Assembly: GCA_023374045.1 (NCBI GenBank)
Contig: CM041777.1
Coordinates: forward strand, 88,034,300 to 88,098,299
Length of the DNA: 64,000 nt
Direction of reading: 5' to 3'
Origin: Limonium bicolor
Taxonomy: Eukaryota > Streptophyta > Magnoliopsida > Caryophyllales > Plumbaginaceae
Below are positions 6,546 to 54,607 of this stretch, in pieces. The translations under genes and the position numbers were made by a program. The notes under the pieces were generated by a model that did no database searches, had not been told where the DNA came from, and was given only the letters and a program-made list of their open reading frames with translations. The stretch's first letter is position 1. Every line of letters begins with the position of its first letter.

Positions 6546-6549
6546 CAAT

Positions 6550-7180: not shown

Positions 7181-7209
7181 CTACCCTACCCCCATTGAAC
7201 TTTGCATCT

Positions 7210-12585: not shown

Positions 12586-13760
12586 TACATGATAATCTCG
12601 GACTTAGTGGTCCGGGTACCTTAATCAACATTATACTTACATAACAATCCTTAGACTCTCAGGTCTGGGTAACACAACAACATTTAGACACATAGGTCTA
12701 GGTAACATAACAACATTTAGACATATAGGTCTAGGTAACATAACGACTTTCGGAACTCAACCACATTAGGACTCAAGTTCAAAATAGTATTTATTTCACA
12801 TACCACACAACATGTCATAGCATGTATAACAATCAAAAATATCTTTTACATATACTGTGATCCCGCAGAACCTGGTCGCGATGGACACCTTCCGTCCCCG
12901 TTCCTTTGGGAGATCAAAACAATCACTTAATCTTTAACACATATGCTTCCCATGTCACCGGGCAAGTACTACAAGAATATCTTTGTTAAGGTTAAGTAAA
13001 AGTACTTCCATAATGTAAGGTATCTATCTACGCTTTATAAATACCAATTCAAAATCCTTTTGAAAACACATACAACTCCAAGTCCAACTTATGCTCTTTG
13101 CTTCTTTCTTAGTGTGGTTATTTGTGACCACTTACAGGGAGCTTCAAGAATCATCCAACCTTGATGTGATCAGCATCAGTGTCGAACTATCCTTCCACCC
13201 CAATTTGTGTTCGGCTTCCTTGATTGCATGCAAATCAAGTTCCACTTCCCACTTCATTTTCAAGCATCAAGTAATACACTCATTTCCAATTTCTATCTTT
13301 TAGTCTTTTAGTCATAATCATTACATCTCCAAAGGATAGAACTCTGTCTACCAGTTATCTCCATTCACTTTAATCTTGTTACCTAGGGAATCTTATTCTC
13401 ACTAGGTTCTATGTCGGTTTCATACCCTTTTCATGAATCACTATATTGTATACATACACTATATTTTATCAAAATACAACACACCATTTTCACATTTATT
13501 CACTGTCGGGGTTTTTTGTTCCCCGGGAGTTTCTTTACTCCCTACACTTGTACTATCTCACATAACTGTTAACAAATAAACACACTTATCACAATCACAA
13601 TGGTATTTCGCATCTTCTGTGCAAAATTACCACAATTAAACCATGAATGAATGCGTATGTTTATGTAACGCACGCACCAATCATCCAAACAAATTATTTT
13701 GTGCTATGCAAACATAGTTCACGTACTCTTGTACGGTAAAACACACTAAGCGGTTTGCGC

Positions 13761-13777
13761 TCTACCCCCCTTAAAAG
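13761..13777 (-). promoter_or_regulatory. Extra PPT-like tract, element B
   Basis: On the minus strand CTTTTAAGGGGGGTAGA, nearly identical to the true PPT but about 1.37 kb inside the element. It is present in D and F as well. Confidence 0.55.
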
Positions 13778-16700
13778 GGATTACACCCACGTAATCAATC
13801 ACTAAATCATTGGTTTAAAACGTTCTGCCGTCGTGAAGTACTTTATCTTCCATGCGGTCTATTATACAATGCATTCTAATTAGAGGATCTTAACCATATT
13901 GGCGGTTTAGTTCCTAACCAAGAATTCTCATTGGAGTTTGCTTTCACTCTTAACTGGTTTCGGTTCTGGCCTGTGTGGCTTCTAGGCGTTAATAATTAGC
14001 CATTCACTCCTGTTCACTATGCACATTCAACACTTGAATCGTTGGCTCACTAGTTTCTACTGCGAAACTATAATAACTGTAGGCCTTAGTTTGCCCCCAT
14101 TCATTATTCTTACTGTATTGTACATCCCCATTTATCACTTTTATCTTGGTAATAACGATTTCTCAACTGATGCGTGGTATTTCTGACCGTGAGCAAATTC
14201 GGTGAGTTTCAAAGCTTCCATCCACTTCTCTAATAATTTACTGTGTATACCGTTATGTGTTTCACAATGATTGACTTGTTTCCTTCCGACTTACTGTCGG
14301 TTGGGATTAAGCTACCACCTAATGTGTAGTGCTCTTTCTGTTTTTCTCCACACTTGAGGTATATTCCATACTGATATCTAGTATTTAGTGCTACTGTAGT
14401 CACTTACTGTTAATCATGCCTCCACATTTGGTTTTGTACATGTACTCTTTCATTGGTACGTCCTTGCATTTCCCATGCATCGGTCATTATAGCGTTATAA
14501 GTCTCTTTCTACTTCCACCACCATTAACATTTCCCAAGTCCTAGCTATCCCACTCGATCATCACTGCGCAAATGCAATACCAAAACAATCAGTCATACAG
14601 AGTGAGAGGCGTAAACTCTTGGCAGTAAATCTCTTATGCGATTGCAATAGGAATTTACACTGTGTTTCACTGAGATTTTTATCTCATAGTACTAGCTACC
14701 GGCTTATTGCCCAGTCTATTTATCATCACTTCCCTTGCATCTCCACTGAGTTTACTCATAACTGGTCTGATCTGCCATAGTATTATTCAACAACACTTAT
14801 ACAACGGTCGCTTGCTGCATACCGTGCTCTTACTCACTATATAACATCTACTTATATGGTATTCACTGTCATTTTAGCTTCCACACATATAGTTACATCA
14901 CTCGTATTATGGTTCGCCACTCATTTGGCTGATTGTTGAATATTCTAGTCTTTTGAGTCTTAATGCTCCTTGAGCACTGTCCATTACTCATTTAGCGTCA
15001 CACATCTATGGTGGTTGCTATTAGACTTGTTACTCTTCCGGTCTCCACAAGTGGTATAAACACTACTTTCGTATCATTCCCATTCAAATCCTCCTCCGGT
15101 AATAACCATATTGGTCCACCCTTAACATATTCCCTGAACTTAGTTCACCTAACTACCACTGTTGCGGTCTCACAATATTAGGAGGTATCCCCACTCTTAA
15201 AGCAGTGGTTCATTCTCCGCTCTGTCTACTTCTACAACATAAACTTCTACAATTGATTAAGTTATATAACATATCCTGTTGTGGCTTATAGGCCTTATTG
15301 CCTTGAGCTCCGCTCATTGTAGGCTGTTTACAACATTTACATCTCTGTACCACATTACATGGTTTGGATATCATATTGGGCTCCATGACAGGGTCGTTGC
15401 ATCACGCTTGTTTTCATGGGATGCCCCTTCAAGGACGTCAGTCCGTCTCCTGACAACTTATGTCTAAACTGGGTGTTAGTTTCAACCCTTGTGTTTCTGT
15501 CACGTTATTTCGTTCAACTATCGTTGATGTGAAAACCCTTCAAGGATTGCTCCTGGGTGTTGCTAAGTTATGCCATTACATCTGGTTCGCACTTATTGGT
15601 ATATTCAGTTAGCCACGCCGTTTGCGTTCTTAACTGGCTTATTATCCTCTTCTGTGAAGATCAACATTTCCTGGTAGTGTAGGTACTCATTCTGGGAGTT
15701 TCATCCCGTTCATTGCACATTAATGTGTCTACATTAGGCATCTGCTTGCCAGGCACAGGCTGGGTCACCATTCCAGCTATCATGTTTACCCCTCGGGATC
15801 TTAAGACATATGTGATGTCTTTACATAATAGTTAGTGCACTTCATATTCCCTGACTCTTAAACATTTCCTTGAAACAAATTCACTAACTCCTTTAGTCTC
15901 GTTAAATTAACTAAGTTCCATTACTTCAACCATTCTCGGTAATCCTTTGCTCTTGATTGACTTACACTGCTGACCGTAGTACGGAGTCGACTACCTCCAG
16001 TGTTCCGGACTCTACTCGTATACATATGTGGGGTACCATGCTGATACATTGCTACTTACCCAACTAACCCATAAGTAGGTCTGTCAGGCCCACAAGCTCC
16101 TATCGGAGTGCGGTCGTCCCACATTACAGCTGGTACACTCGTAGTGTTCGTCACACGCCTAGGTGAAGTATTCTGTTGTCAACTCCCTTATACTGTCCCG
16201 TGACAATATGGATTCCGTGCTTCCCGAACTTAATCGAGGGAAAGTTTATCACTGTTGTATCTTTATCAACTGCCCTTGGTTTTTACTGGATTGGTTTAGA
16301 AGAAGGTTAGAAAGAAGTATTGGTTTGAAAGAAAATCTGGTTTTGAAAGAAAAGAGTTTGAAATAAATCTAAGCTTGAAAGAAAAATTCTCATGGTTTCA
16401 CAACGCCTTCTTGCCTTAACCAAGTCTAGCTCTTGCTGACTGGTGTACTTCCAATTACAACGGTTAGGCTATCAAGCCCTTCCATGGTCATGATGATCTC
16501 ACTTAACTTCATGGTAGTTTACTAAGTTCTTCGTATTTGTTAAACTTCCCCGAACAACCTGTTATAGCAGCACTTGCCATTGCCATGCTAACTGGCTATC
16601 GGTTCAACACATACCGGTTATGGTATTGTTTTTACCCGCACTGTCATCAGTGGCCTTGTTGGCCCTCACTTGATCTTACAGTCTTGACAATTAACCCTCT

Positions 16701-17224
16701 GGGCAACTTCTCACTGTATTCACATGATAATCATCAGCTAGGGTGTCTCCCATTCTTGGAGACCCCTTTTTACTTAGTACTGTATCTTCTTCGTAGCCCG
16801 TTCCACACATTTGTCGTGGTTACTGAGACTTGTCTCTCGTTTGGGCACTACGTTGTAGTTCTTTGTCAGTTGGTATACCGTCGGTGTATCATTTAACAAC
16901 TATGGTCCCGTAGACACTCGTCTCGGGTTTCATTAATCCACTTCTTGCCTGTTGCACGGTCGGTGCGTTGCAAGCTGGTTATTCTCGACTGCTCAGCATG
17001 TCGACCCAGGTTGCCGGAAATTCTATTCTTCTATACACAAGATTCTTCATTCTTCGCTATTAAATGTGGTTAACATTGTTCAGATGGAAACCGTCTCCGG
17101 GATTCCCAGTTTTCGGGATCTACCGTTTGATAGGTTCTCCGTACCTTTAGAGGTATTTAATAACAGCCAGATCGGGTATTCCCGAGTAAGAGAGGACTTC
17201 CATCTCTCTGGCATTGTTTCCCAA

Positions 17225-20200
17225 TGTAACGCCCCTATTTATCACAAATGCAGCGGAAATAAAATACTAAGGCGATTACAGACCATCGGGTTCCAAGCAC
17301 CCGGCACCAAACCTCACCAATTACAGCTTATGATATTACAAATGCTACGGTCTGAACTCGAGAAAACATAACATAAAAGTAATAATAACAAAATACAATA
17401 GCTTTCCAAAATTCCTAATTCCCATCCCATACACTCACTCTCTTCGTGGCCACCTGTATAACAATTCGTACCTGCAAGATGAAACCAAGCAGCCCACCCC
17501 GGGAGGGGTGAGTCAGTTCCCTGGAATGGAACTGGTACAACTCTCCAAAACAAAGGTTTAAAACAGAACGCTTGAATAAACAATAACTTGAAGTCAAATG
17601 CTTAAAACAAAAACAGAATAAGAAGGCACCTCCAAATCACCAAGTCAAAGGTAACAAGTCAAAGATAGAGATAAATAACAGGAAGGTAAAGTTAGGCAAT
17701 TTAAAAGAAACCACACCATAAGTTAGTGAACATCCATTGCTTGTGTTAGATTCAGTTCCAATTAGGAGTAGAAAGACCCAAGTAGTCACAAGGACTAGGA
17801 ATGAAAGAAGAGATCCAAGACCCATAACTCAAGAGTGGAATAAAGTCAATTGGGAGAGATGGCCCCCACCGCCAGTCAGTTGTCACAAGGACGAGGTAAA
17901 CAGACCCTCCGCTGTCAGTTGTCCACTTGGACGAGGTATAGCAGACCTCCGCTGCCACCGACCGATTCTCAGTCATCGGTGAAAAGTGTGTGCACCACTT
18001 AATAGAAAGAATTCATACCCAATATATACCAAGATTGACATTTTCCCATATTCCCACTAGACTATTAACTACACGAGTGCAATACCAAACACTCAGTCCT
18101 ACAGAGTGCAGAAGCGTAAACCCTCAGCAGTTAATATCCAATGAGACAACCAGAAAGGAGGAACCAATAATCATGAAAGTTGTACATTCAAGGCTCAGTC
18201 GGTCACAACAGGCTGAGTTAGTCACACAAACAATTTCCTTTCAAGATTCATTCAAACTCATTTAGCGTTTCTCAAGACATTCCATAAAATTCGTCACCAA
18301 AAGCATCTGAGTACGAGAAATCGTACCTGGTATATGTAGTAGCAGTAACCAAACTTGAAAATGCGAACTAGTTCCACTAATCACCTATAATTAGAGTATT
18401 CCAAGCATTGATTAGTTAAGGTACTATAATGCTACACATCCTCCATTCCTATTAGTCTATAGTTCTGTTTTACAGTTACTCCCTCCTAGGGGTCTGGCTA
18501 GATCTCGTAATTAAAACTTTAATGCATACTTAACTTATTCCATTTACCCACTCCTGATTATAGGTTTAGTTTAATTAAACCCTTTGGTTACGCTTGGCTA
18601 ACTTACTTGATCACCTATTCAAGGTTTAAGGTATGTATTTCCCCCTAATAGTCCACCTAGATGTCACATTAACATTTGATATATATATATATATATTTTT
18701 AAGTGTCACGTATGAATAAGGTTTATCCCAATTTTTCCCTCTTAATACGTTTCCCACAAGGTATGTTACTACTTTTATTTACTTCTAATGTATTTATATA
18801 CACTTATATTTTCCTTAGGATTTATCCAAAACATTCTTTAAGAAATTACTTATTGTATTTAATTATATTCATACTTTTAGACATATCCACAACTGATATA
18901 TGGTTTATAAAATAAAGTGTTTGCCCTCGTTTAATTAAGCATATTAACCTCAATAATAATAATATGTAGTTTAGTTTAATACCTCGATTTAACATAAGTT
19001 CCTATTTTATTTTCTCATATAAGTATATTTATATTGTAAACAATTTTACTTCACCTAAAAGATAATACCCAAAATATTTATACATACTGATGTAAAATTT
19101 AATTTAGGTTTAATTATTTTCCCCAACCTAAAAGCTTATTAACAAACCATACTTTAATTTTTGTTACATTCAAAACCATATATTATAAGTTATTCTTATG
19201 AAAATTCCATAAACATAATTTTAAACCTATTTACCCTTTTCCAAAAATTCCCAAATTTAATATATAATAACTATAACATTTTATACATATTATAAAATTT
19301 TTATTTCATAAAAATATCTTTTTAAATTACCTAAATAATTCCATAATACTCGTAATTGCAAAAATCATAACTTATGTTTAAAAACTCAAAACCCATATTA
19401 ATTTACATCAAAATAAACTAGATTAAATAAGGAATCTATGGTTAAAATTTCAAGTCAAAATACATTCGGGAAGATATTTAATTAACCCAACAAGTTAAGA
19501 CTATTTACTGGAATTTTATAAACCTTTATAACTTATTCTGGAATGTTTTAATCTCGGCCGTCCAATCTCTTAAAGCGAGATCGGACGGCCCCTGTACTCC
19601 GAGTTCATCAGTGAAGGTAATAGGGGATCGAGTACTAAATCTCGTTTTTCTCACAATCTACAGAACGAAATCGAGTGATTCTTGTTCCTATCGATTCGTA
19701 ATCAAATTCCGGTTCTAATGGTACCGATTTCCCCAATTATAATGCAGTATACATCAAGTTTCGAAATCGATGGAGAGTTAGGGTTTATTTCGGTACAGAA
19801 TTTAATTCGATTGCAATTCATACAAATTCTCCCATTGTAATGCATAATAGACTAAATTGCATGTGGGTTTGATCGGTGATGAAATTTCGAATGGCATCAT
19901 GGAGCAATTTGATCAGAAACTTACCGGAATTGCATTAACGGGGTGAAACCAAATCGAGAATTCTGGAAATCGGTATTTTATGTGTGGTTCAGGTATGCCT
20001 CTTCTCGAATCAACTCGCACCAACTGAGAGAGATTTGATTCATGGAACCTATCACAATCCAAACTAGACATGTAACTCTAGATGTTAGTGGAAGAATCAT
20101 TGATTTTGATGAACTAGGGAGAAAGTTACAGATCCCACAAGATCCGTGTTTACCTAGTTGGTTTCGGGATGAACTGGGCAGAATTACCACCGTGATCGAG

Positions 20201-21056
20201 TAGGCAACTTTAGACAGATTTATCTCCCAAACCAGTGCGAATCAGCCTTGGCCATCAACATGAAAGTTATAGAGGGATTAGAGATCTTCAAAACAAGCTA
20301 AAGAACACGAAATTTGGATGAGAAATGAAGAAGTTATGGCGTGACGAAGTTTACCCGATCTCGGGAAAAACCGGAATTCTGGGTTACGAACTCGCGAGGA
20401 GGCAACTTTGGATCAACTTTCCGATCATTGTAGAAGGAGTTAGATGGTGTGTGAGTAATGGTTGGAAAGAGGAAAGATAGGAGAATCGAATGAAACAAAC
20501 GGCATACCAAATGGTGGAGTAGGGAAAAAGATATAGGTGTCTAAAGATCGCCCCATGACATGCCAAAACCGCTGGAAACTCAACCGATTGAGTGACCCGG
20601 TGCTGACTGGGCGCGACACGTGTCCCTAGCCCTGGACACGTCAGCATCCTTCAAAATTTTGGCTCTAAACTTCAATTTATCATAACTTTGGCTAGGATGA
20701 TCCGTTTTTAACGTTCTTTTTATCGATCTTCTTGGTTTTCCATAACCTTTTTATTGGTATAGTTTTCATGGCCTGATTTGACCATTCTCAAAAAGTCAAT
20801 CCTAGCAAGGCTTTTGAAGCTTTAAGGTTTCTATGATTTTATTTTGACTTTTAAGCCTTAAATCAATGTTCAAAGTATTTCTAAAATCTTTATAATATAA
20901 TTGGAGTGTCTTGAAATTTTCCCAAGATTTATTGACTTATAAATCTCACTATTAAATTCATAATACCATATAATAAATTAATATTTAATAGTTTCATTTA
21001 GGGTTTACCAAAAGAAATCCCCTAAATTAATTTAAATTAATTTATGGGGTATTTCA
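17225..21056 (-). repeat. Element C: 3' LTR (3.83 kb)
   Basis: Low end TGTAACGCCCCTATTT, high end GGGGTATTTCA, then the inverse PPT. It aligns with 27314-31053 over its full length with scattered substitutions and small indels. It has about 75 bp near 19690-19770 that are missing from the other LTR. It is non-coding, with a (TA)n run at 18679-18696. Open reading frames here are mirrored in the other LTR only in broken form. Confidence 0.93.
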
Positions 21057-21072
21057 GTCTACCCCCTTAAAA
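21057..21072 (-). promoter_or_regulatory. PPT of element C
   Basis: On the minus strand TTTTAAGGGGGTAGAC, ending at the LTR start. An 8-bp hairpin (AAACTTCG, loop TCC, CGAAGTTT; 21074-21092) lies right next to it. Confidence 0.9.
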
Positions 21073-21273
21073 GAAACTTCGTCCCGAAGTTTAACGCCAA
21101 CTAGTAGCTACTCACACCACATCAGGTGTGCTGTCAAGAATCCAGAATGTTCATCAATCCCCCCCCATAAAGGAAGAGTATGCACTTGACCCCCCCCCCC
21201 CCCGAAAAGAGCCAAGGTACGCCCTCGTACCGCTATGAACAAGAACCCAGTAAAGGCAAGAATACAAGAAATA
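21073..21273 (-). other. Element C: pol-to-PPT untranslated segment
   Basis: Short non-coding stretch between the end of pol and the PPT, with a cytosine run at 21190-21203 and the PPT-side hairpin. Nothing else is recognised. Confidence 0.6.
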
Positions 21274-22158
21274 TCATGGGAATAGGTGTGGGTACTTCAC
21301 TCTCATAGAGTCCTCAGTCTCCCAAGTAGCTTCTTCAACCCCATGATGCTCCCAAAGAACCTTCACTAGCTTGACTGATCTGCCTCTCGTTTCCCGGACC
21401 TTCGTGTCCAGGATCTGAATGGGAGTCTCCTCATATCTCAGTGTAGGTTCAATCTCTAATCTCTCTGGTTGTAGCACGTGAGAAGGGTCAGGTACATACT
21501 TCTTCAGCTGAGATACATGAAACACGTCATGTAGGTCTAGTCGATATGCTGCTGGGCCCACGCGCTCCGTAATCCTGTACGGACCAACATACTTAGGGCT
21601 TAGCTTTCCTCTCATCCCAAATCTGAAGATACCTCTCATCAGACACTCGTAGGAAAACATATCACTGATCTGAAATTCAAGCTCTCTGGTACGCTGATCC
21701 CCGTAAGATTTCTGCCTAGACTGCGCTGCCCTCATGTGCTGCTGAATAACTCTGATGTCATCCTGTAGTCTCTGAATATACTCTGGACCAATCAAAACTG
21801 TCTCAGCAGGGTCACTCCATGATAAAGGTGTCCGGCACGGTCTGCCATACAGAGCTTGAAATGGGGCCATGCCGATAGACGAGTGATAGGAGTTGTTGTA
21901 GGAGAACTCTACCAAGTGTAGACGCTCCACCCAACTCCCCTGATAGTCTAAGGCGACCGCTCTCAACATATCTTCCAGTGTCTGAATCGTCCTCTCGGTC
22001 TGCCCATCTGTTTGAGGGTGGAAGGCTGTGCTAAGTCGCAACTGAGTACCAAATGCCTCCTGCACCTGACGCCAAAATCTACTAAGGAAACGTGCATCAC
22101 GATCGGAGACGATCGTCTTCGGTACCCCATGGTACCGGATGTGCTCCGTGGTGAACAC
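21274..22158 (-). pseudogene. Integrase core C-terminal half plus chromodomain-like tail (element C pol)
   Basis: 294-residue open segment. Near its start SDRDARF carries the second catalytic Asp (residue 19) and GQTER carries the Glu (residue 55), the D-x35-E spacing of retroviral-type integrases. The GKLSPKYVGPY segment (about residues 182-192) is the usual integrase C-terminal motif. The last 55 residues, with the VLWEHHGVEEATWE motif, match the divergent chromodomain of plant chromoviruses, thought to guide integration to heterochromatin. The first part of the core lies in the next upstream fragment in another frame. The short stretch DMFSYECLMRG looks locally out of frame compared with the family. 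Confidence 0.93.
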
Positions 22159-22417
22159 CAGCTAGTTTGGGCACCTTCCATGTGTCCTTTATAGGTATGA
22201 ACTTAGCTGTCTTAGTTAACCTATCCACTATCACCCAAATTGTGTTCAATCCACCTCTAGCTGGAGGGAGACCGACCACAAAATCCATACTAATATCGTC
22301 AAACTTCCAGCACGGTACCGGTAATGACTGAATCTGGCCTCCTGGTCGCCGATGCTCGAACTTCACCTTCTGACAGGTGAGACATCGCGAGACGAAGTCT
22401 GCTACATCCCTCTTCAT
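22097..22417 (-). pseudogene. Integrase N-terminal part (element C pol)
   Basis: Holds the Cys pair of the integrase zinc finger (CLTCQK; residues 12 and 15) and the first catalytic Asp in VIVDRLTK. It is in the same frame as the RNase H segment but separated from it by the stop TAG at 22427-22429, where a Tyr codon is usual. It runs out of frame after VPKLA near 22165, where about two bases are missing, and the core continues in the segment starting at 22158. Confidence 0.9.
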
Positions 22418-22426
22418 CCCGCTCCA

Positions 22427-23515
22427 CTAGAATAACTTCTTTAAATCCTTGTACATCTTGGTGGCTCCAGGATGTACTGACAATGTAGAGGAATGAGCTT
22501 CAGAGAGAATCCTGGTCTGAAGTTCTGTCGCATCCTGAGGAACGCAGAGTCTGTCTCTGACTCGAAGGTGTCCCTCGCTGTCTAGCTCGTAGTCATACTT
22601 CAGACCATCAGTCAACCCATCTGCTAATCTCTGCCTGATACCCTGCAGATACACATCACTGTCCTGAGCTGCATATACCTCCTCAGCTATCGTGGTCGTC
22701 TCTATGAGAGCAAGAAGTGAGTGTGCTCTTCTGCTCAGAGCGTCTGCCACGACATTACCTTTACCCTCAGTGTACTGGAGGTCGATATCATAATCAGCTA
22801 GTAGCTCGATCCACCGTCGCTGTCTCAAGTTCAGCTCCTTCTGGGTCCAGATGTATTTCAAACTCTTATGATCTGTCATAATTCGGACCGTGGCTCCATA
22901 CAGGTAGTGTCGCCAGATCTTCAAGGCAAAAACTATGGCGAGGAGCTCAAGGTCATGTGTGGGATAATTTCCTTCGTGCTTCTTCAGCTGTCGAGAAGCG
23001 TAAGCCACGACTCTGCCATTTTGCATCAATACTCCACCGATCCCCTTGCCTGAAGCATCACAGTAAACCTCGAATCCCTCATTTCCCTCGGGGATCACCA
23101 ATACAGGAGCTGTGGTCAGAGCATCCTTCAGTGCCTGAAAGGAGACCTCACATGCCTCTGTCCATACAAACGGGCTATCCTTCTTCATCAGAGAGGTTAA
23201 GGGCTTGGCTAGCCTGGAGAAATCCTTCACAAAGCGTCTATAATAGCCAGCCAACCCAAGGAAGCTCCGAATCTCAGTCACTGAGCGAGGTCTGTGCCAG
23301 CTCTTCACCGCCTCAATTTTAGCTGGGTCCACTGAAACTCCCTCAGCTGAGATCACATGACCAAGAAATGATACCTTGTCCAGCCAGAATTCACACTTGC
23401 TGAACTTGGCATAGAGTTGCCTCTCTCTCAGAGTCTCCAAGACTGTTCTCAAATGCTGCTCATGTTCCTCCCTACTCTTGGAGAAGATCAGAATATCGTC
23501 TATGAATACGACCAC
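22427..23515 (-). pseudogene. Reverse transcriptase C-terminal part and RNase H (element C pol)
   Basis: 362-residue open segment beginning at the RT active site (FIDDILIF, residues 4-11; the paired Asp are 6 and 7). RNase H follows, with the first Asp in [12 protein letters not shown] (about 150), Glu in LELLAIV (about 190), Asp in [10 protein letters not shown] (about 214) and the family motif DALSRR. The end [15 protein letters not shown] starts the integrase zinc finger. It is joined in the original frame to the segment ending at 23524, with a one-base shift between them, and ends at a nonsense codon. Confidence 0.93.
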
Positions 23516-23523
23516 TGACTTGT

Positions 23524-24568
23524 CTAGCTGGGCTTGAAGACCCTCTGCATCAGATCCATGAATCTCGCTGGTGCGTTAGTCAGTCCAAACGGCATCACTG
23601 TGAACTCGTAGTGGCCGTATCTGGTTCGGAACGCTGTCTTCTCTATATCTGGCTCAGCTACTGCTATCTGATGATATCCGGAACGCAGATCGATCTTGGA
23701 GAACACCCTCGCTCCCTTCAGCTGGTCAAATAAGTCATCGATCCTGGGCAGTGGGTACTTGTTCTTGATCGTGACATTATTCAACTCCCTGTAGTCAATA
23801 CATAATCTCATGCTTCCGTCCTTCTTCTTGACGAACAGCACAGGTGCACCCCAAGGTGAGACACTAGGTCGGATGAAACCCTTATCTAGTAACTCCTGCA
23901 GTTGTTTCTTCAATTCCGCCATCTCCGCAGGGCCCATCCGGTAGGGTGCTTTGGCAATCGGTCCTGTACCAGGTATGAGGTCGATGTTGAACTCAACCTC
24001 CCTCAATGGTGGTAGTCCAGGTAACTCCTCCGAAAAAACGTCGGGGTACTCCGACACAACAGGTATGTCACTCTTGAACTTTGGATCTGTCCTCAGATCC
24101 TGGGCATAACAGTAGTAGGCGGTCGCTCCCTTGGACACCTCCTTCATCAGGGATAATGCCGATACAACCTTCACAGTCGGCTGCTTGGGCTGCATTCGGT
24201 ATGATACTGTGATCCCTGTAGCTGACTTCAAGAGGAGACGATGCTCTGCACAGTGAAGCCTACCTCTGTATCGCTGTAGTGTGTCCATGCCCACAATTAT
24301 GTCGAACCCCATGCCAGGGAAGACAATGGCATCAAAGAGGAAATCTGCTCCCTTGATGCGTATATTCAAGTCCTTACATTGCTTACTGCACTTGATTAAC
24401 TCTCTGGATGGCAATAAAACTGAGCAGTCATGGATATCCTCTGTAGGGGCATCTATCTTAGCATGGAATGCCTGGGATATGAATGAATGGGAGGCTCCAG
24501 AATCAAACAGAACAATGGCTTCCACCTCATTAATTAAGAACGTGCTGAAACCGCAGAGTAAATTCTAA
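23524..24568 (-). pseudogene. Aspartic protease and reverse transcriptase N-terminal part (element C pol)
   Basis: The open frame from 24525 encodes 333 residues; the codons just upstream (FLINEV) are also in frame. [12 protein letters not shown] near the start is the protease active site. RT fingers and palm follow: [37 protein letters not shown] (first catalytic Asp) and [12 protein letters not shown]. The frame stops at RVFKPS just before the FIDD motif because of a one-base deletion near 23525. A cluster upstream (24695-24617, ending in GMVITG) is the usual lead-in to protease, separated from it by a 73-bp intron-like segment. Confidence 0.93.
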
Positions 24569-24617
24569 GATTCTCAGGCATTACTTCCAAGGTAATAAAT
24601 CAGGCTAGTAGTTATAC
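24545..24617 (-). other. Intron-like 73-bp segment between the pol lead-in and protease
   Basis: On the minus strand it starts GTATAAC after ATCACAG and ends GCGGTTTCAG before CACGTTC. It contains stops, while the peptide on each side (VITG and TFLIN) looks like one continuous family segment. Exact GT-AG removal would leave the frame one base off, so this is either a decayed intron or a plain insertion. Confidence 0.35.
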
Positions 24618-24789
24618 CTGTGATGACCATCCCATTGCTCTTCGCTTGAGCCTGGTTCAACACAGTCAACCTGATCTCTGAGTTCCCAACCCCTACAACG
24701 ACGAAACAAACTTATAAGATTTCCACTCTTATTAAGGTCTTCATGAGCATTTTAATGATTACAATGCTGAAATTGCATAAATTACAAGG

Positions 24790-25527
24790 CTAGATCTGTC
24801 TAAAGGTCAGGTTTAAACGGCCAGGTTTCATGTGGGTCTGGTTGATGATGGATGTGGGGGCTGTGTGGGGCTTAATTCTCTTCACCCCATGGTAGATAAG
24901 TCTGGCTGCTCCCCCGAAAATCAGCACATCACCCGACTTCAGGAGGATCTTTGTAGCAAGATCCATTCTCTTCTGATCTCCAAATAGGAATTCCGCGTCG
25001 TCTCCAAGTGATATGGACACCACTGGAACTCCTCTGGTGATGGACTCCAGAGACTCGTCCCTATCCTGATGCATTCCTAGCTTACCTTCTTTCCCATAGA
25101 AGTTGATGATGCACACGTCTGAGGTTAGGTCTGGGACTGGCTCATCCTCCAATTCCTGGGCTGTTTTAACTGCAGCTCCAATGATGGTCTGCAACTCTCC
25201 TGGAATTGGTGGCACCTCCACCTCCTCATAGCTTCTAGTGGTGTGGTCCCACTTCTTACCTAGGCACATGATCTTCACCTTCATGGTTGCACCGTTCTTG
25301 AAGGTAGGGGTGTAAAAGTTTCCTCCTTTCACACCTAATTCTCTGATCTTGAGGATCAATGCATATTGGTCAGCTGGGGTCAAAAATTCTCGTAATAAGA
25401 CCATCCCAGGTCTCAATATCTCACACTTCTCTGGTGGGTGTGGTTTGGCTTCAAAGGGAATGGTAGGTGTGGAAATAGGCAATACAGGAAAGCAAATCGA
25501 AAGCTGAACGAAAACAACAATTGCCAT
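24790..25527 (-). CDS. AlkB-like 2-oxoglutarate/Fe(II)-dependent dioxygenase inside element C
   Basis: Intact 245-residue ORF between gag and protease in the element's own orientation. Members of this fold remove methyl groups from nucleic acid bases by oxidative demethylation. Visible residues: NFY (142-144), Fe(II) ligands H153 and D155 in GMHQDRDE, H213 in YHGVKRI, and 2-oxoglutarate-binding R237 and R243 in GRLNLTFRQ. The pattern, with FYTPTFKNGA, CLGKKWD, DQKR and SGDVLIFGG, is that of plant ALKBH1-type proteins, especially the shorter cytosolic/nuclear-type paralogs; the domain is essentially complete. The first 20 residues are hydrophobic and may not belong to the ancestral protein. 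An in-frame stop lies a few codons upstream, so M1 is the first possible start. A TATAAAT box lies about 60 bp upstream. The frame is uninterrupted and intron-free, unlike cellular plant homologs. The substrate cannot be told; RNA or DNA are both possible. Confidence 0.93.
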   Translation of the reverse strand: MAIVVFVQLSICFPVLPISTPTIPFEAKPHPPEKCEILRPGMVLLREFLTPADQYALILKIRELGVKGGNFYTPTFKNGATMKVKIMCLGKKWDHTTRSYEEVEVPPIPGELQTIIGAAVKTAQELEDEPVPDLTSDVCIINFYGKEGKLGMHQDRDESLESITRGVPVVSISLGDDAEFLFGDQKRMDLATKILLKSGDVLIFGGAARLIYHGVKRIKPHTAPTSIINQTHMKPGRLNLTFRQI

Positions 25528-25584
25528 TAAGTGAACAAGTCAAGGTTCAAACTGGTCTTAGCACAAAGATGTAAAAGAAAGAGG

Positions 25585-25597
25585 GATTTATAGTTCA
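25585..25597 (-). promoter_or_regulatory. TATA-like box and pyrimidine tract upstream of the AlkB ORF
   Basis: The minus strand reads ACTATAAATCCC, then a pyrimidine-rich stretch (CCCTCTTTCTTTTACATC) ending in TGCTAAG, about 60-30 bp before the ATG at 25527. It could be an internal promoter or an acceptor region for a spliced message, or neither. Confidence 0.3.
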
Positions 25598-25651
25598 TCC
25601 CTTTACAATGCAGAGGAAAAATTACTTGAAGAAATAAAGCAAAACGAAGGT

Positions 25652-27026
25652 CTAAGCTTCTTCAGTAGGAAAGTATTCCTCACCAGGCGAACTCGGGTCA
25701 TCACTCGCTGATTCGACACGGTCCACCAGGTTGAGAGCTGGTGCTTTGCCTGGCCTCTGAGGGTAGTTCTGGGCAGGGCGATGGGTAGATGGTCCAGCAC
25801 CTCCGGTGCCACCTCTACCTCCTCCTCCATTCGTATTAGTAGCTGGGGCTTTAGTCGCTGACCCGGTGCGTGGCTTGTAGTTCCTGGAAGAATCCGGGTT
25901 TGAGAAGCACTCTAAGGATCTATGCCCCTTCCTGCCACAGTGGTGACACGTCCCAGAGTTCCGTCACACCTCCTTCCTGGATGGTCCCTCTCACTACTTC
26001 CTGCGAAGTATCTTCTTACGGGTGGTTTTCCTGTTCCAATTCAAGGTCAGTGACGTGATAGCAATATGTAACCACATTGTAGATTATGTTTATCTTACCA
26101 CTAGGTGCTGGGAGCGGATTGGCTCAGCATCGGTATGTAAAGGGACTATGGCCTTTTCATTCTTCCCCTTTGTAGAACTTGCCCTTCCTCTCATAGTTCT
26201 GGGAAGATTTTCCTCCACTACCTCCTCCAGCATCTCCCTCTCCTCTTGCCTAGCACAGAATCCTGATAGGCAATGGTGGTTTCGCAGTCGTTTGCATCAT
26301 CAGCTAGTTCCTGTCGTTACAATATGTGTTAGTGGGAAAATCTTATCGAACCTAAATTCCAAAGTCATATTCCATACCTGTAAAGTCTTTCCCCTGGTGG
26401 AACCGATCATGGTCATGATCCTGAAGTTCAAGCCAGTATGAAATTTATCCACCAGGTACCCGGAGCGTAAGCTCCCTCTCCAATGACAGCAGCAACTCCA
26501 CAAACTTGTCATAGTACTCAGCAACAGAAGAAGTCCCTTGCTTCAGCTGCTCAAATTCACTTCTCATTCTCTTTTGTAGGTAGGATGGGTAGAACTTAGC
26601 TCTCAGGGCCACCAGAAAAGCTTGGAAATCAAGTTCGCTTGGGTGTCAGCTTGGCTCTGGCTGTCTGCCACCATCGATGAGCTGGCCCTTGGAGAAAGTA
26701 GGCCGCTATGTCCACTTGGCGATCTGCTGGGACATGTAGAGAGGTAAAAGCCTTTTGAATCTCAGCGATGTATTTCTCCAGAGCTTTTGGTACTGGCTGG
26801 CCCTCATAGGCTGGGGACGAAGATCGTTGACCGCTTTCAACCAGTTAAACTCTCGTGGACCGTTGGGTGGTGGTGGCGGTGGTTGAGGGATCTGAGCCTG
26901 CTGCTGAGCTAATGCAGCGGTAACAATCTGAGCTATGACCTCAGGGGTAACAGCATCGGGTCCGTAACCACCTGGGGGTTCCGCTCCCTCTCCTCCTCTT
27001 CCTCCGCGTCCTCCTCTTTGAGACAT
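25652..27026 (-). pseudogene. gag (element C), multiply frameshifted
   Basis: Starts MSQRGGRGGRGGEGAEPPGG at 27026, with a Pro/Gln-rich stretch next. The retrotransposon gag core appears in pieces (AEIQKAF-like, RWWQTARAKL, LRAKFYPSYLQKRM, SVAEYYDKFVELL) across at least three frames, with breaks near 26815, 26640 and 26455. The CCHC zinc knuckle CHHCGRKGHRSLEC lies at 25948-25907. The last frame runs through a Pro-rich region to EEYFPTEEA and a TAG at 25654-25652. Gag forms the virus-like particle and binds RNA. Gag ends in its own stop, 124 bp before the AlkB ATG, whereas related elements usually fuse gag to pol. Confidence 0.88.
26031..26098 (-). other. Intron-like 68-bp segment within gag
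   Basis: On the minus strand GTAAGATAAAC follows CACCTAGTG, and GAATTGGAACAG precedes GAAAACC. The borders look like plant splice sites, but 68 bp is near the lower limit for plant introns, and gag is too decayed here to confirm the reading frame on either side. Confidence 0.25.
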
Positions 27027-27296
27027 TTAGCTGCTAAGGATGTGTTTGTTGTTCAGAAGTTGTATGTTAAATCTAGACATCTATGCAGTAACGTGCAAAG
27101 TGTTTCATAACTACCCAGGGACGGTATGTAGTTAGAGTGTTCATGAGTAATGTAAATAAGGTCAAGTATGGGGTAAGGGTATCGTACCTTTCAGGAATCC
27201 TCACTTCCCAATTCTACCCCGATTCCCCAGTTTTAAGGACACCTATATTCTAAGTATTTCACTCGGCTTGTTTTCTCGGGCTCAGAGCGTAACTAC
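27027..27296 (-). other. Element C: leader between PBS and gag
   Basis: About 270 bp of untranslated leader. No further motif is recognised apart from the second arm of the PBS hairpin at 27282-27289. Confidence 0.6.
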
Positions 27297-27308
27297 GCTC
27301 TGATACCA
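27297..27308 (-). promoter_or_regulatory. Primer binding site of element C
   Basis: On the minus strand TGGTATCAGAGC, complementary to the 3' end of initiator Met-tRNA, five bases (GAAAG) after the LTR end TGTTACA. Its 3' half forms an 8-bp hairpin with the following bases (TCAGAGCG, loop TAGTTA on the sense strand, CGCTCTGA). Confidence 0.95.
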
Positions 27309-27313
27309 CTTTC

Positions 27314-30300
27314 TGTAACACCCCTATTTATCATAATGCAGCGGAAATAAAATACTAAGGCGATTACAGACCATCGGGTTCCAAGCACCCGGCACCAAAC
27401 CTCACCAATTACAGCTTATGATATTACAAATGCTACGGTCTGAACTCGAGAAAACATAACATAAAAGTAATAATAACAAAATACAATAGCTCTCCAAATT
27501 CCTAATTCCCATCCCATACACTCACTCTCTTCGTGGCCACCTGTATAACAATTCGTACCTGCAAGATGAAACAAAGCAGCCCACCCCGGAGGGGTGAGTT
27601 AGTTCCCTGGAATGGAACTGGTACAACTCTCCAAAACAAAGGTTTAAAACAGAACGCTTGAATAAACAATAACTTGAAGTCAAATGCTTAAACAAAAACA
27701 GAATAAGAAGGCACATCCAAATCACCAAGTCAAAGGTAACAAGTCAAAGAGAGATAAATAACAGGAAGGTAAAGTTAGGCAATTAAAAAAAACCACACCA
27801 TAAGTTAGTGAACATCCATTGCTTGTGTTAGATTCAGTTCCAATTAGGAGTAGAAAGACCCAAGTAGTCACAAGGACTAGGAATGAAAGAAGAGATCCAA
27901 GACCCATAACTCAAGATTGGAATAAACCAATTGGGAGAGATGGCCCCCACCGCCAGTCAGTTGTCACAAGGACGAGGTAAACAGACCTCCGCTGTCAGTT
28001 GTCCACTTGGACGAGGTATAGCAGACCTCCGCTGCCACCGACCCGTTCTCAGTCATCGTGTGAAGTGTGTGCACCACTTAATATAAAGAATCCATACCCA
28101 ATATATACCAAGATTGACATTTTCCCATATTCCCACTAGACTATTAACTGCACGAGTGCAATACCAATACACTCAGTCCTAAAGAGTGCAGAAGCGTAAA
28201 CCCTCAGCAGTTAATATCCAATGAGACAACCAGAAATGAGGAACCAATAATCATGAAAGTTGTACATTCAAGGCTCAGTCAGTCACAACAGGCTGAGTTA
28301 GTCACACAAACAATTTCCTTTCAAGATTCATTCAAACTCATTTAGCGTTTCTCAAGACATTCCATAAAATTTGTCACCAAAAGCATCTGAGTACGAGAAA
28401 TCGTACCTGGTATATGTAGTAGCAGTAACCAAACTTGAAAATGCGAACTACTTCCACTAATCACCTATAATTAGAGTATTCCAAGCATTGATTAGTTAAG
28501 GTACTATAATGCTACACATCCTCCATTCCTATTAGTCTATAGTTCTGTTTTACCGTTACTCCCCTCCTAGGGTCTGGCTAGATCTCGTAATTAAAACTTT
28601 AATGCATTAACTTATTCCATTTACCCACTCCTGATTATAGTTTAGTTTAATTAAACCCTTTGGTTACGTTTGGCTAACTTACTTTATCACCTATTCAAGG
28701 TTTAAGGTATGTATTTCCCCCTAATAGTCCACCTAGATGTCACATTAACTTTGATATATATATATATATATATTTAAGTGTCACGTATGAATAAGGTTTA
28801 TCCCAATTTTCCCCTCTTAATACGTTTCCCACAAGGTATGTTACTACTTTTATTTACTTCTAATGTATTTATATATACACTTATATTTTCCTTAGGATTT
28901 ATCCAAAACATTCTTTAAGAAATTCTTATTGTATTTAATTATATTCAATACCTTTTAGACATATCCACAACTGATATATGGTTTATAAAATAAAGTGTTT
29001 GCCCTCGTTTAATTAAGCATATTAACCTCAATAATAATATATGTAGTTTAGTTTAATATCTCGATTAACATAAGTTCCTATTTTATTTTTCTCATATAAG
29101 TATATTATGTGTAAACAAATTTTACTTCACCTAAAAGATAATACCCAAAATATTTATAACATACTGATGTAAAATGTTAATTTAGGTTTAATTATTTTCC
29201 CCAACCTAAAAGCTTATTAACAAACCATACTTTAATTTTTGTTACATTCAAAACCATATATTATAAGTTATTCTTATGAAAATTCCAAACATAATTTTTA
29301 AACCTATTTACCCTGTCCAAAAATCCCAAATGTAATATATAATAACTATAACATTTTATACATATTATAAATTATTATTTCATAAAACATCTTTTTAAAT
29401 TACCTAAATAATTCCATAATACTCGTAACTTGCAAAAATCATAACTTATGTTTAAAAACTCAAAACCCATATTAATTTACATCAAAATATACTAGATTAA
29501 ATATGGAATCTATGGTTAAAATTTCAAGTCAAAATACATTCGAGAAGATATTTAATTAACCCAACAAGTTAAGACTATTTACTGGAATTATAAAAACCTT
29601 TATAAACTTATTCTGGAATGTTTTAATCTCGGCCGTCCAATCTCATAAAGCGAGATCGGACGACCCTGTACTCCGGAGTTCATCAGCGAAGGTAATACGG
29701 GGATCGAGTACTAAATCTCGTTTTTCTCACAATCTACAGAACGAAATCGAGTGATTCTTGTTCCTATCGATTCGAGAGTTAGGGTTTATTTCGGTACAGA
29801 ATTTAATTCGATTGCAATTCATACAAATTCTCCCATTGTAATGCATAATAGACCAAATTGGCATGTGGGTTTGATCGGTGATGAAATTTCGAATGGCATC
29901 AACGGAGCAATTTGATCAGAAACTTACCGGAATTGCATTAACGGGGTGAAACCAAATCGAGAATTCTGGAAATCGGTGTTTTATGTGTGGTTCAGGTATG
30001 CCTCTTCTCGAATCAACTCGCACCAACTGAGAGAGATTTGATTCATGGAACCTATCACAATCCAAACTAGACATGTAACTCTAGATGTTAGTGGAAGAAT
30101 TATGATTTTGATGAACTAGGGAGAAAGTTACAGATCCCACAAGATCCGTGTTTACCTAGTTGGTTTCGGGATGAACTGGGCAGAATTACCACCGTGATCG
30201 AGTAGGCAACTTTAGACAGATTTATCTCCCAAACCAGTGCGAATCAGCCTTGGTCATCAACATGAAAGTTATAGAGGGATTAGAGATATTCAAACAAGCT

Positions 30301-31053
30301 AAAGAACACGAAATTTGGATGAGAAATGAAGAAGTTATGGCGTGACGAAGTTTACCCGATCTCAGGAAAACCGGAATTCTGGGTTACGAACTCGCGAGGA
30401 GGCAACTTTGGATCAACTTTCCGATCATTGTAGAAGGAGTTAGATGGTGTGTGAGTAATGGTTGAAAGAGGAAAGATAGGAGAATCGAATGAAACAACGG
30501 CATACCAAATGGTGGAGTAGGGAAAAAGATATAGGTGTCTAAAGATCGCCCCATGACATGCCAAAACCGCTGGAAACTCAACCGATTGAGTGACCCAGAG
30601 CTGACAGGGCGCGACACGTGTCCCTAGCCCTGGACACGTCAGCATCCTTCAAAATTTTGGCTCTAAACTTCAATTTATCATAACTTTTGCTAGGATGATC
30701 CGTTTTTAACGTTCTTTTTATCGATCTTCTTGGTTTTCCATAACCTTTTTATTGGTATAGTTTTTCATGGCCTGATTTGACCATTCTCAAAAAGTCAATC
30801 CTAGCAAGGCTTTTGAAGCTTCAAGGTTTCTATGATTTTATTTTGACTTTTAAGCCTTAAATCAATGTTCAAAGTATTTCTAAAATCTTTATAATATAAT
30901 TGGAGTGTCTTGAAATTTCCCAAGATTTATTGACTTATAAATCTCACTATTAAATTCGTAATACCATATAATAAATTAATATTTAATAGTTTCATTTAGG
31001 GTTTACCAAAAGAAATCCCCTAAATTAATTTAAATTAATTTATGGGGTTTTCA
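27314..31053 (-). repeat. Element C: 5' LTR (3.74 kb)
   Basis: Low end TGTAACACCCCTATTT next to the PBS; the high end GGGGTTTTCA has lost one base relative to GGGGTATTTCA of the other LTR. Compared with 17225-21056 it differs by scattered changes and a deletion of about 75 bp near 29770. It has a (TA)n run at 28755-28774. It is non-coding. Confidence 0.92.
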
Positions 31054-33217: not shown

Positions 33218-36200
33218 TGTAACACCCCATCCAACATTAACACACGTACAACAAACTGCAGCGGAAAACATACTTCATCACATTACTTAACTCGTTGGTG
33301 TTACACGCCGTTAACCACCCACGTGGCTAACAAGGCTATTACATACACATTGTATCGGTCTGATGGACTAGATTCCCGAGAGACTACACATTACTATCTC
33401 TTTCCATTAACAACAAGACATACACATACCTTCCAACTATACCGAGTATTTACAAGCTGATGCCGATAACAATTTCGGTCTTACTACACCTACTGTACAC
33501 ATACAACTTAAGTGATTACCCATGTACAAACGACTACCCCGTCCTACTCTCGAACGGCTTCCAGCTCCTAGTACCAGAAATAGGAAAAGAAGAGAAAGGG
33601 TGGCCCCCCAGGGGCTCAGCACCTTTGCTGGTATGGTAATCCCGCAGCCCGCATGCTACCGGGCCACGCACAACTATTTGTCGTCTAAGCATGCTGTTGA
33701 TTTTATTTAAATCATGCACGTAAACTACAAATACACAACACATTACACTGCACAACAATGGCTCAATAAAACAGCCAAACATCATCACTTAATAAATCAC
33801 TCATTGTGATCTTTAACCCCTAGAGTGTTTCTCCTTTAATGGAGTTATTTCCTTAATAGACGACATTTGCCCACCAATCGGGTTATTCCCAAACGCCTCT
33901 TACAATAAACTGGAGTTCATATCCATGATCCACATACTCCACATCTTAACAACATATAACATCACATCCCAATAAGATTGCAGCACAACAATAATACTTA
34001 ACATAACGGGAACGGTTCCCTTTTACGAACCGGCCCAAACATAGTCAGTTCACTTGTAGAGCCTAGAGAATGTTGCCAGACTCATGATAAGCTCGTTACA
34101 TAACTCGTTACCGTCTCGTTAAATGAACGGATAACTTAACACCAAGGTGCGTCGGATATAGTAACCCAAGCACACCGAACAAACATAGTATGCCCTTGTG
34201 GCCCGACGTGAGTCAGTAAAATAGCTTTGGTTAAGCTAAAGGGAAGATTGGAAACCAAATTGGAAAACAACCATAACATACAGAGAGGATCGAACCTGAT
34301 ATGACAACGACCCCCATACTCACACGCGTGGCCGAAACAGACCGGACTCCTCACTCCCCGGTTAGCACTTGTTAGGAGTCCCTTTATTGGACTTAGTACA
34401 TTAATTCTCAAATAGATGGTTAGGTCTAGTTAGACACACACAAGGGAGGTTCATACATTCACACACAAACATCACACACAAACATCACATGACTAACTCA
34501 CGCATAGCCATGGTTAGAACGTTCCTTAGGTTGGAAACGTTATTACCGGATACCGTTCTCTTACGTTTACCTAAATAATGGTTAACTAGCCTTCCGTGCG
34601 CATTCGAGGTTACCGGTATCGTACGCACACACACCACAACAATAACGACTGTAAACTCGTTTCATGATTTCTTATAACATGGCAAACATACAGAAAAACA
34701 CATTGGCATACAGCCGTTTAATCCGGTAGGACACAGGTTGCAAGAAAACCATACCTTGGCCCTTGCTGCATACGAGTCCCGGCCAAACGTAGTTCCTAAA
34801 CATGATTAGTAATGTCGGTTATTATTATTTAACTTTTGAATACTAAGTGTTTTAACATGATATATGTCATGTTTCCTTACTTAATTCACACTTGATTATC
34901 CTTGTTATACCCACTAGGGTTTACTACTTAAGTCACTCTTGTTTTTTTTTTTTTTACAAGTTTTTGGTCCGACCGACCGTACCGACCGACCTTACACAAG
35001 GTCGGTCCATTCCAGAACACATTACCGTCCAAAAATTCTACTCCGGCCGACCTTGCAAGTTCGGTCCACAAGGTCGGTCCATTCCAGAAACAATTTCCCG
35101 TTCAAATTTAGACACGACCGGCCTTGCAAGTCCGTCCCAAGGTCGGTCCATTCCAGAAACTTAATTCGTACCAAAATATAAACCCGACCGACCTTGCAAG
35201 TCCGGTCCCCCCCAAGGTCGGTCCATTCCAGAAACTCTTTCCGTAGTGTAAACTGAGCTCGACCAACCTTACAAGTCCGGTCCCTAAGGTCGGTCGCTCT
35301 AGACCTTTGTTTCTCTACTTCCATTTGACTTGACTCCAACTTCACCTCATGTATCCTAGTATGTTCTAACCACATTTGGCCACCTCAAACACACCTTAAG
35401 ACCTCCATTAAACTCCTTAAATTACCCATTAAGATCTTCCTCAAGCATTACACAATTCTTATAAATACTAACACTTGTAGTGTTTTTCCTTAGATTTCTA
35501 AGTGGTGTTTTATACTTATGACAATCACTATCCTACAATGTTCCTTACCACCAGTATCACTACTTCAAAGGCATTATTTTTTCCTTTGATCACCAAAACT
35601 TGCACAAGACTTAGCATTTCATACCACATAACTTTAGTGTGTTGACAACACCCCTTTGATTTCTAAATCCTCCAAGACTATGCCCAAGGCATCATACACT
35701 TAAGAACACCATATTTCACTTGTTTCACATCCACACACTTCACTAACAAATTCCTAATACCTATAGGTCATAAAATCCCATTAGAATACATGAACTCCTT
35801 TGTTTGTCGACTAAATTTTTGTCATAGCTTCTCTGTATATTCTCACACCCAAACACTTAGGTTTTCACTTTAAATCATTCAAGAACTCTTAAATCCATCA
35901 AGAACCTTCTCACACACAACTTCACCAAATTTACACTACATCACAATATAGTGCATAAACAATTGCTTGGCACTTAGGCCCTTAAATAACATGGCTCTTA
36001 GGCCCTTAAATTGCATAAACCATAAACACTGAATTTCCACATGTATATATTGCCTTTGACCTGCAAATACACCCAACAATACATATGCCCTTAATAAACT
36101 CCTTGAGAGCATTTTACTAGCTCATTTGCCATTGGCTCCTTAGGTATTTTATTAAGCAAATCAAGCTCATTTTTCCTAGGCATTTAAACTACATTGAGAT

Positions 36201-37669
36201 AGTTTGTTTACCTCCTTTTCTTCAAGATTTTTACTTGAACACTCTTGTTCTTCCTTGTTTGGAAATCGGCAATACTTGGCTACTTGTCAATGTTCTAATC
36301 AATACACAAGTAAAACCAATGAGCATTCAAGCTTCATGCTTAAACTCATTGTAAACCCTAGGTCATATATATTGTTTTAACACTTTAGGATAGTTGTTTT
36401 ACCTTGGAAACAAAGAGAGCTGAATAAGCATCAAGAGACAACACCTCCTTGTCCTTTAAAGATTGAAATGGGGCTATGAAAGAACAAGAGAAGACACCAT
36501 TAATGGTGAATTTTGGACATGTAATAAAAAATGAAGGAATGTTGTTTTTTTTTTTTTGGTTATTCCTTACCTTGAAGCAAAGAGAATAACATGGCATGAA
36601 AATATGAGCTCAAGCTCCTTCAATGGTGAATCTCCATGGCACCGAAATGGAGTTCTTGAAGATTTGAAAAGATAGAAGTGTAGAGCTTGGTCTAACTAAG
36701 ACAAATATGGTCTTAGGATTTGATTTGGAGCATGGAGTTGGATTGGCAAGGAAATGAAGATGGAGAGAGAGGTTACTATAGCCCATCGTTTTTGAAGAAG
36801 AGAGGAGAGGTTGAAGACGGTGGGAACAAGGAGAAAAGAAGAGAATGAGGTGAGAGTCTACCTTTGTTTAGATATTTATGTAATAAAGTAGAAGTACTTT
36901 ACTTTTTTCTTCCTTTCTTTAATTGATTTGCAAATGGTGGTGACTCACCTTACAAAAACTGGCCCCCTTATATTACTTAGGGGTGTTTTGGTCTTTGTTG
37001 ACCAATTAACTTACTTATATTGACTTATGTCATAAACTAGCATATTTTAGTTACTATTCACAAAAAAACAGGCACATACTTGTGAAATTTTTTATTTCCC
37101 ATTGATTTAGACTTCCAAATGTGATACTAAGTAGTACACATGTTATTTAAAGAGTAATGATGGACATTTAGCCATTCAAAACTCATTTACAGACAATTTT
37201 TTCAAAAATGTGCTTTAAGACTCCTTAAAGCACATTTGTGTTTTAACTTGTTTTCAAGCTTGGTTTCTTTTGTAATTGGGTTTATATGTTCATTAACATA
37301 TAATTAAGGTATAGGTATGACCTTTAGGTCTTATGCAAACTTATCCCAAGCTTAGAGCACATTTTTGCCCATATTGACTTTAAGGTATTTATTTGTGTTT
37401 TATTTGGTTTAATTGTCTACCAAGGTTTCCTAAGGACTTAATTAGCCTTATTAAATCATAATTGACTATTATTTAGTCTTGTTAGGTTCTTTGGGTCCCA
37501 ACCAAGTTCACTCCAAGCTTAGAGCATGTTTTTGCTCAAGCCGTATTCATGGTACTTATTGTTTTCACCATGGTTTAAAATTGTACACTGATGTTTCTAA
37601 GGCACTTTTTAGCCTTTAAATATCATAGTTTAGTATTTAAACAATATATCAAGGTTTTTGGGTATTTCA
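33218..37669 (-). repeat. Element D: 3' LTR (4.45 kb, minus strand)
   Basis: Same family, orientation and left flank (CCTTGAG) as the element B LTR at 7954-12394, with small differences throughout. Ends are TGTAACACCCCATCC and GGGTATTTCA. Because B and D share the same insertion point they descend from one insertion that was duplicated. It is non-coding. Confidence 0.92.
34967..35297. repeat. GGTCGG-rich tandem array in LTR of element D
   Basis: About five units of 71-80 bp equivalent to 9705-10028, with small length changes such as an extra GTACCGACC at the start and an added C run at 35205-35212. Confidence 0.85.
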
Positions 37670-54602: not shown

Positions 54603-54607
54603 AAAAG

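Follow-up and report, generated by a model that had tools for sequence, protein, structure and literature searches.

Ty3/gypsy elements bearing an AlkB domain were reported in 2022 from two Phalaenopsis species, and the available part of that report names no other plant in its 121-genome screen as a carrier (PMC9289625). The orchid element Gypsy_Pa_2799 resembles the locus that we describe here from Limonium bicolor, in that both are plant Ty3/gypsy LTR elements with an AlkB ORF that keeps its cofactor-binding residues, but the two also differ, as far as the accessible portion of the source goes (PMC9289625). The AlkB of Gypsy_Pa_2799 is an ALKBH5-like m6A RNA demethylase, whereas that of the Limonium element is of ALKBH1 type. 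The orchid reverse transcriptase (RT) falls within Tat, beside Ogre, while the Limonium element is likely a chromovirus; the primer binding site (PBS) corresponds to tRNA-Arg in the former and is of tRNA-Met type in the latter; and the orchid element measures 25.5 kb with dual RNase H, compared to 13.8 kb for the Limonium element. In Gypsy_Pa_2799, gag and pol form a single ORF and AlkB a separate ORF2, whereas in the Limonium element AlkB lies between gag and protease. As the two differ in the family of the AlkB, in the element lineage and in where the gene sits, the Limonium capture was likely independent of the orchid one.

An earlier sequence-only reading of the locus could not say whether such elements had been described. 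They have, as ALKBH5-like forms in orchids according to the available text (PMC9289625), and no ALKBH1-type case was found: among the titles and abstracts listed from the open PMC literature, there was no other AlkB-bearing plant LTR element. An AlkB-bearing plant LTR element is thus already known, and an ALKBH1-type protein in a likely chromovirus is likely a second, independent case. Other comparisons concern gene arrangement. In Ogre and EVADE, as described in the parts of the sources at hand, intron splicing sets which products arise, as we predict here, but the predicted intron of the Limonium element would itself hold a gene (PMC6317226, PMC12786077). Group 2 Tekay elements of sunflower are chromoviruses with an extra ORF, which lies 5' of gag-pol and is reported, in the accessible text, without similarity to a known domain (PMC11728184).

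On balance, we cautiously favour the reading that the locus is a decayed, likely chromoviral element with an ALKBH1-type AlkB in its gag-protease spacer, and that this AlkB is an inherited gene of the element lineage, predicted to demethylate adenine in element nucleic acid. If this is true, AlkB has entered plant LTR elements on two or more occasions, with different AlkB families as source and different element lineages as recipient. Convergence of this kind would strongly support adenine methylation of retroelement nucleic acid as a plant defence, and would broaden the question from RNA m6A to DNA 6mA.

Architecture and decay of the element

Within the window (the whole 64-kb stretch of DNA that was analysed), the AlkB ORF lies inside a 13,829-bp Ty3/gypsy element at 17225-31053. 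The element is on the minus strand, as are all of its features given below. Both LTRs have TG...CA ends. The 3' LTR in element sense (17225..21056, 3832 bases) was delimited with the repeat families of a self-comparison, and the 5' LTR covers 27314..31053 (3740 bases). The pair shows 98.2% identity over 3724 aligned bases (K2P 0.018), with 43 gap openings besides; at plant substitution rates, this divergence corresponds to an insertion about 0.7-1.3 My ago. A PBS of initiator tRNA-Met type (27297..27308), which presumably pairs with the 3' end of tRNA-Met, is found 5 nt past the LTR, and a polypurine tract (21057..21068) adjoins the 3' LTR. The proposal of a 13.8-kb element with two LTRs, PBS and polypurine tract is therefore borne out, with the latter two at the expected places.

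The internal region retains recognisable gag and pol sequences. By six-frame reading, a gag remnant is spread over several frames at 25652..27026, with its tail stop at 25652. A gag piece at 26406-26705, read with stops as X, matches Pfam Retrotrans_gag (E 1.9e-9). A zinc knuckle is seen at 25907-25948, and the gag tail piece matches zf-CCHC at 0.0053 and 17.2 bits, against a Pfam cut-off of 20.8 bits. Protease and the first part of RT occupy 23524..24690 (RVP_2 1.2e-25 with stops as X; RVT_1). The remainder of RT, RNase H and the start of integrase follow in a different frame at 22427..23575, which terminates at a stop, and the integrase core to C-terminus lies at 21274..22161 (SH3_Tf2-1 1.3e-15), including a chromodomain-like end at 21298-21417. 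The pol domain order of protease, RT, RNase H and integrase fits a Ty3/gypsy chromovirus. The integrase C-terminus matches Pfam Chromo (PF00385) with E 8.7e-4 and 19.6 bits, below the cut-off of 25.1 bits. According to the accessible part of one source, tRNA-Met primes most chromoviruses and is not used by non-chromoviruses (PMC6317226). The element is of Ty3/gypsy type, and the chromovirus label given from the sequence alone becomes a likely one, judging from the PBS together with a chromodomain match below the Pfam cut-off.

The AlkB ORF (24790..25527, 245 aa) encodes an ALKBH1-type 2OG-Fe(II) dioxygenase that matches Pfam 2OG-FeII_Oxy_2 with E 2e-43. It lies on the same strand as, and between, the gag tail (stop 25652) and protease. 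These flanks agree with the original description as to the gag stop and an open protease-RT stretch (23524-24525) reaching 24525, but the pol reading seems to begin farther upstream, near 24690. Between 25652 and 24565, the sense strand stays free of stops for up to 249 codons. In 300 dinucleotide shuffles of this segment, the longest run averaged 78 codons and never exceeded 171, so the open AlkB frame is not a product of chance. The claim of an open 245-residue AlkB ORF in gag/pol orientation is confirmed, as is that of the catalytic residues in AlkB order. H153, D155 and H213, the HxD...H iron triad, are invariant across a 14-row alignment, and R237 and R243 (RxxxxxR, 2OG) are nearly so, with one of the 14 rows truncated there. 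The catalytic domain is open from end to end. At its start, however, the ORF translates a T-rich tract for eight residues, and 'FDIC', a motif of plant ALKBH1 proteins, is divided between two frames; the natural start is possibly not the ATG at 25527. Many plant ALKBH1 proteins have a long N-terminal part, which the element AlkB lacks.

The rest of the element is in poorer condition. Gag is frame-broken and scattered across several frames. Pol shows at least three breaks, with frame shifts near 23.55 and 22.1 kb and a stop at 22427 between them. Immediately upstream of the protease motif, a 72-nt in-frame stretch (24544-24615) contains two stops; it has intron-like GT...AG ends, although splicing it out would break the frame. 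The original description mentions neither the broken frames of gag and pol nor the split N-terminal motif of AlkB. To judge from its reading frames, this copy no longer works as an element but preserves, as a fossil, the order of its genes. As the LTRs have diverged by only about 1.8%, the openness of AlkB is no evidence of selection after insertion.

ALKBH1 affinity and predicted function

The resemblance to plant ALKBH1-type proteins was upheld by both sequence and structure comparison. The best PDB sequence match is rice OsALKBH1 (5xeg, 4.8e-64), and among the 21 PDB matches this one is joined by 15 named AlkB, five named ALKBH1 and none named ALKBH5. An AlphaFold2 model built from a 32-row alignment had a mean pLDDT of 88.8. 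Its top Foldseek match was again OsALKBH1 (TMq 0.83), followed by E. coli AlkB, while ALKBH5 chains reached TMq 0.53 at most among the 50 matches listed. Identity to the rice structure (5xoi, 5xeg) is 47%. The element protein shares its predicted fold and catalytic residues with OsALKBH1, but has residues found only in its own clade and sits in a retroelement. By sequence and predicted fold, we conclude that the element AlkB is of ALKBH1 type. An ALKBH5-type origin was set aside on the PDB sequence matches and the fold ranking; the trees presented below contained no ALKBH5/9/10 rows, placing the split between ALKBH1 and ALKBH5 outside their scope. A viral origin was also set aside. Viral AlkB domains, including those of plant RNA viruses, likewise combine a mobile genome with AlkB, but their structural match falls far below that of OsALKBH1 (viral models TMq ≤0.61 and ≤23% identity among the 50 matches listed).

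We propose that an ancestor of the element took up an intron-free ALKBH1 gene long before the present insertion, and that the AlkB reading would lie inside a gag-pol intron. One RNA could then give three products: gag from the unspliced form, a gag-joined AlkB from one splice, and gag-pol from another. A gag-tied AlkB would enter the particle and act there on the single-stranded cDNA or RNA-DNA hybrid of reverse transcription. Since reverse transcription yields both, a gag-tied ALKBH1-type protein would meet such substrates. Of the candidate substrates, these two come closest to the ones reported, in the available part of a study, for rice ALKBH1, namely 6mA in R-loops and in DNA that is unpaired or single-stranded; the rice protein also counters PRC2 binding (PMC10469495). 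The element AlkB may have an anti-silencing role, as the sequence-only reading proposed.

Candidate splice sites for this scheme can be placed. The predicted donor in the gag tail (first intron base 25683) agrees with five of seven consensus positions, a score of at least 5 being reached by 13 of 326 GT sites; two others lie farther upstream in gag and one right after the gag stop, making 25683 the sole 5/7 donor between the zinc knuckle and that stop. One predicted acceptor has its last intron base at 25504, two bases ahead of the split FDIC, and ranks top for T content among 80 YAG sites. The other, where the pol reading starts (last intron base 24693), ranks second among the 80, tied in T content with 24767. 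A splice from 25683 to 24693 preserves the gag frame into pol, while in this copy one from 25683 to 25504 misses the AlkB frame. The Pfam protease match begins at profile position 17 and stops short of the predicted first pol exon. Local shuffles yield an acceptor as good as 25504 in 36% of cases and one as good as 24693 in 23%. Over the whole internal region, three sites have at least nine T against a shuffle mean of 2.3, and three or more occur in 38% of 300 shuffles; the antisense strand has four such sites. The best acceptors fall at the places that the splicing scheme calls for, but their positions were already known before the acceptors were scored. As comparable sites are common in shuffles, we do not take these sites as strong evidence, and splicing remains a prediction.

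AlkB enzymes often act on RNA as well as DNA, and for an ALKBH1-type protein, single-stranded-DNA adenine methylation and RNA would be equally plausible targets, the substrate being unpredictable from the fold. It is quite possible, though short of probable, that the AlkB is an element gene but serves as an RNA m6A eraser as in orchids, freeing element mRNA from m6A-dependent sequestration or decay. The orchid element AlkB demethylates m6A in single-stranded RNA in vitro, according to the accessible text (PMC9289625), and the host protein ALKBH9B frees ONSEN RNA, as stated in the part of a review at hand (PMC12786077). Sequence and predicted fold argue against such a role, as they group the protein with ALKBH1. 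Returning to the adenine demethylase that we favour, its most specific form is a chromovirus lineage with its own ALKBH1-derived enzyme, encoded in an alternatively spliced, gene-bearing gag-pol intron and delivered with gag into the particle, that would erase 6mA on R-loops and single-stranded cDNA; this DNA-methyl eraser would have evolved apart from the RNA eraser of orchids. We consider this detailed version rather doubtful.

Descent of the AlkB lineage

Relatives of the window AlkB were sought among 5.8 billion proteins. In the best 120 of 1668 matches, the top three rows are P0001, P0002 and P0003, with 52%, 58% and 57% identity, respectively, and a shorter protein in row 43 (P0043) has 56%. 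All four derive from raw ENA or Logan contigs. A second search gave no additional close clade member among the 120 matches listed; its query alignment included the four proteins, which accounts for their ranking first in it. In a tree of 50 hand-chosen rows, the window AlkB and these four form a clade with support 100/99, whose stem measures 0.78 changes per column. The clade sits inside flowering-plant ALKBH1 at a fork supported at 95/85; its sister group is weakly placed, and the long stem may mislead. A tree with host ALKBH1 proteins had been suggested as a check, and the window protein does fall in a clade nested among those of flowering plants. The same clade was recovered with support 99 in a tree of 182 rows, built from 304 database proteins, which were trimmed to the domain and thinned at 80% identity, together with the window AlkB. 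None of the other 177 rows, many of which are annotated plant proteins, falls within it. All members of the clade share ten residues that each occur in fewer than 5% of those 177 rows.

The separation is also seen in pairwise identities. The best identity of the window AlkB is 53% outside its clade and 58% overall (best 120 of 1668 matches), compared to a median best match of 73% among the 177 rows, which were thinned at 80% and include algae and mosses. Seven of the 177 have a best match of 59% or less, including a clubmoss, a moss and a daisy-family row, so a low best identity is by itself no proof. Where conservation across the 177 rows reaches 98% or more, the window AlkB keeps 38 of 40 columns; the two lost are G70, a glycine in practically all rows, and one other. 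It keeps 17 of the 88 columns conserved below 70%, where low scores are expected of any row. Where columns are conserved in both the 177 rows and P0001-P0003, 45 of 50 are kept. The chance of this is about 2e-8 with a per-site retention derived from the mean terminal branch of 0.64, and 7e-4 at a flat retention of 0.7. This indicates purifying selection during much of the separate history of the lineage, which need not mean residence in the element for all of that time. Overall, the distinct clade, its long stem and the kept conserved columns point to an old, constrained lineage rather than a fresh host copy.

Such a lineage might instead be that of a host ALKBH1 paralog which has diverged and is poorly annotated in some plants, and from which the element acquired AlkB more recently. 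The four relatives of the window AlkB come from raw contigs, which is compatible with this origin; one contig is 1151 bases long, those of P0001 and P0002 measure about 26.6 kb each and that of P0043 10 kb. However, none of the other 177 rows in the larger tree joins the clade (the searches covering the best 120 matches each), and we regard a host paralog as unlikely. Gene annotation usually masks transposons, and an element-borne clade would for that reason be missing from annotated proteins. The gene arrangement is known here from one element copy, and P0001-P0003 and P0043 as protein sequences alone.

It was also suggested that the element had captured a processed host message. The ORF is indeed intron-free, and only for that reason can a processed message be spoken of; a recent capture does not agree with a best identity of 58% (best 120 of 1668). 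The same figure weighs against a one-off capture, whereby a host AlkB retrocopy would be a passenger in a single element copy and no element gene. An insertion only about 0.7-1.3 My old predicts a close living plant gene, yet the best match falls well below the 73% median of the other rows. A young insertion with a remote AlkB match argues against capture in this copy alone. In favour of a passenger, one copy was examined, it is decayed, and the ORF start looks accidental; the argument from divergence is also weaker if the host species and its kin are unsampled. Taking these points together, we think a one-off capture quite improbable, and prefer an AlkB inherited within the element lineage.

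Long AlkB proteins were scanned for element domains. One of 106, P0154 from Cinnamomum micranthum, has a gag domain, and none has a protease, RT or integrase domain. P0154 shares 87% identity with an avocado protein over most of its length (334/385), and 83% over its first 30 residues (25/30); it shares 48% identity with the window AlkB. Its Ty3-type gag match lies between the avocado-like parts. A gag-AlkB fusion was rejected for P0154 since the sequence on either side of the gag match is avocado-like, as in a host gene model, and the protein is likely to reflect the insertion of an element into an ALKBH1 gene, judging from that sequence. If so, it illustrates one possible route of capture. 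Further AlkB ORFs were seen on raw ENA contigs, namely P0010 (which represents 15 sequences), P0063 and P0116. P0010 and P0063 pair at 100/98 next to grasses on a separate stem, and the three are possibly a second mobile AlkB set.

Contig collections were also searched. In the viral collection, the AlkB search gave two stretches and the protease-RT search 15, none of them confirmed, while the AlkB clade alignment gave four loci at 31-36% identity out of 100 stretches. The 14-row AlkB alignment against the genome contig collection gave 15 stretches, again with none confirmed. No plant element was recovered from the viral and prokaryote collections by the AlkB or protease-RT searches.

Insertion junctions and neighbouring repeats

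The left end of the element cuts into a large repeat at 17224..17225; another, related copy of this repeat near 54793 runs on unbroken at the corresponding point. No target-site duplication is present between the two flanks of the element. The right flank neither repeats the left flank nor resumes the interrupted large repeat, which suggests loss or rearrangement at the right end. These junctions, in a window dense in large repeats, could suggest an assembly artefact or unrelated nesting in which AlkB is no part of the element, but AlkB lies between matching LTRs, near the gag tail and protease and on their strand, and the self-comparison has no repeat boundary around it, making this explanation very improbable.

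Rfam and tRNA scans across the 64-kb window gave no matches each. The window further contains a two-kilobase palindrome (5851-7888, 89%) and a direct repeat of about 3.4 kb with 96% identity (42287-45681 and 46398-49735). Large repeats resembling LTRs of about 4.4 kb are found at 50182-54602 and 59638-64000, with inverted copies at 7954-17224 and 33218-42283. The internal regions between them are without ORFs of at least 180 codons, and these repeats may represent big non-autonomous elements. A stretch at 54594-54634 is like the PBS/LTR junction of the AlkB element (90% over 41 bases).
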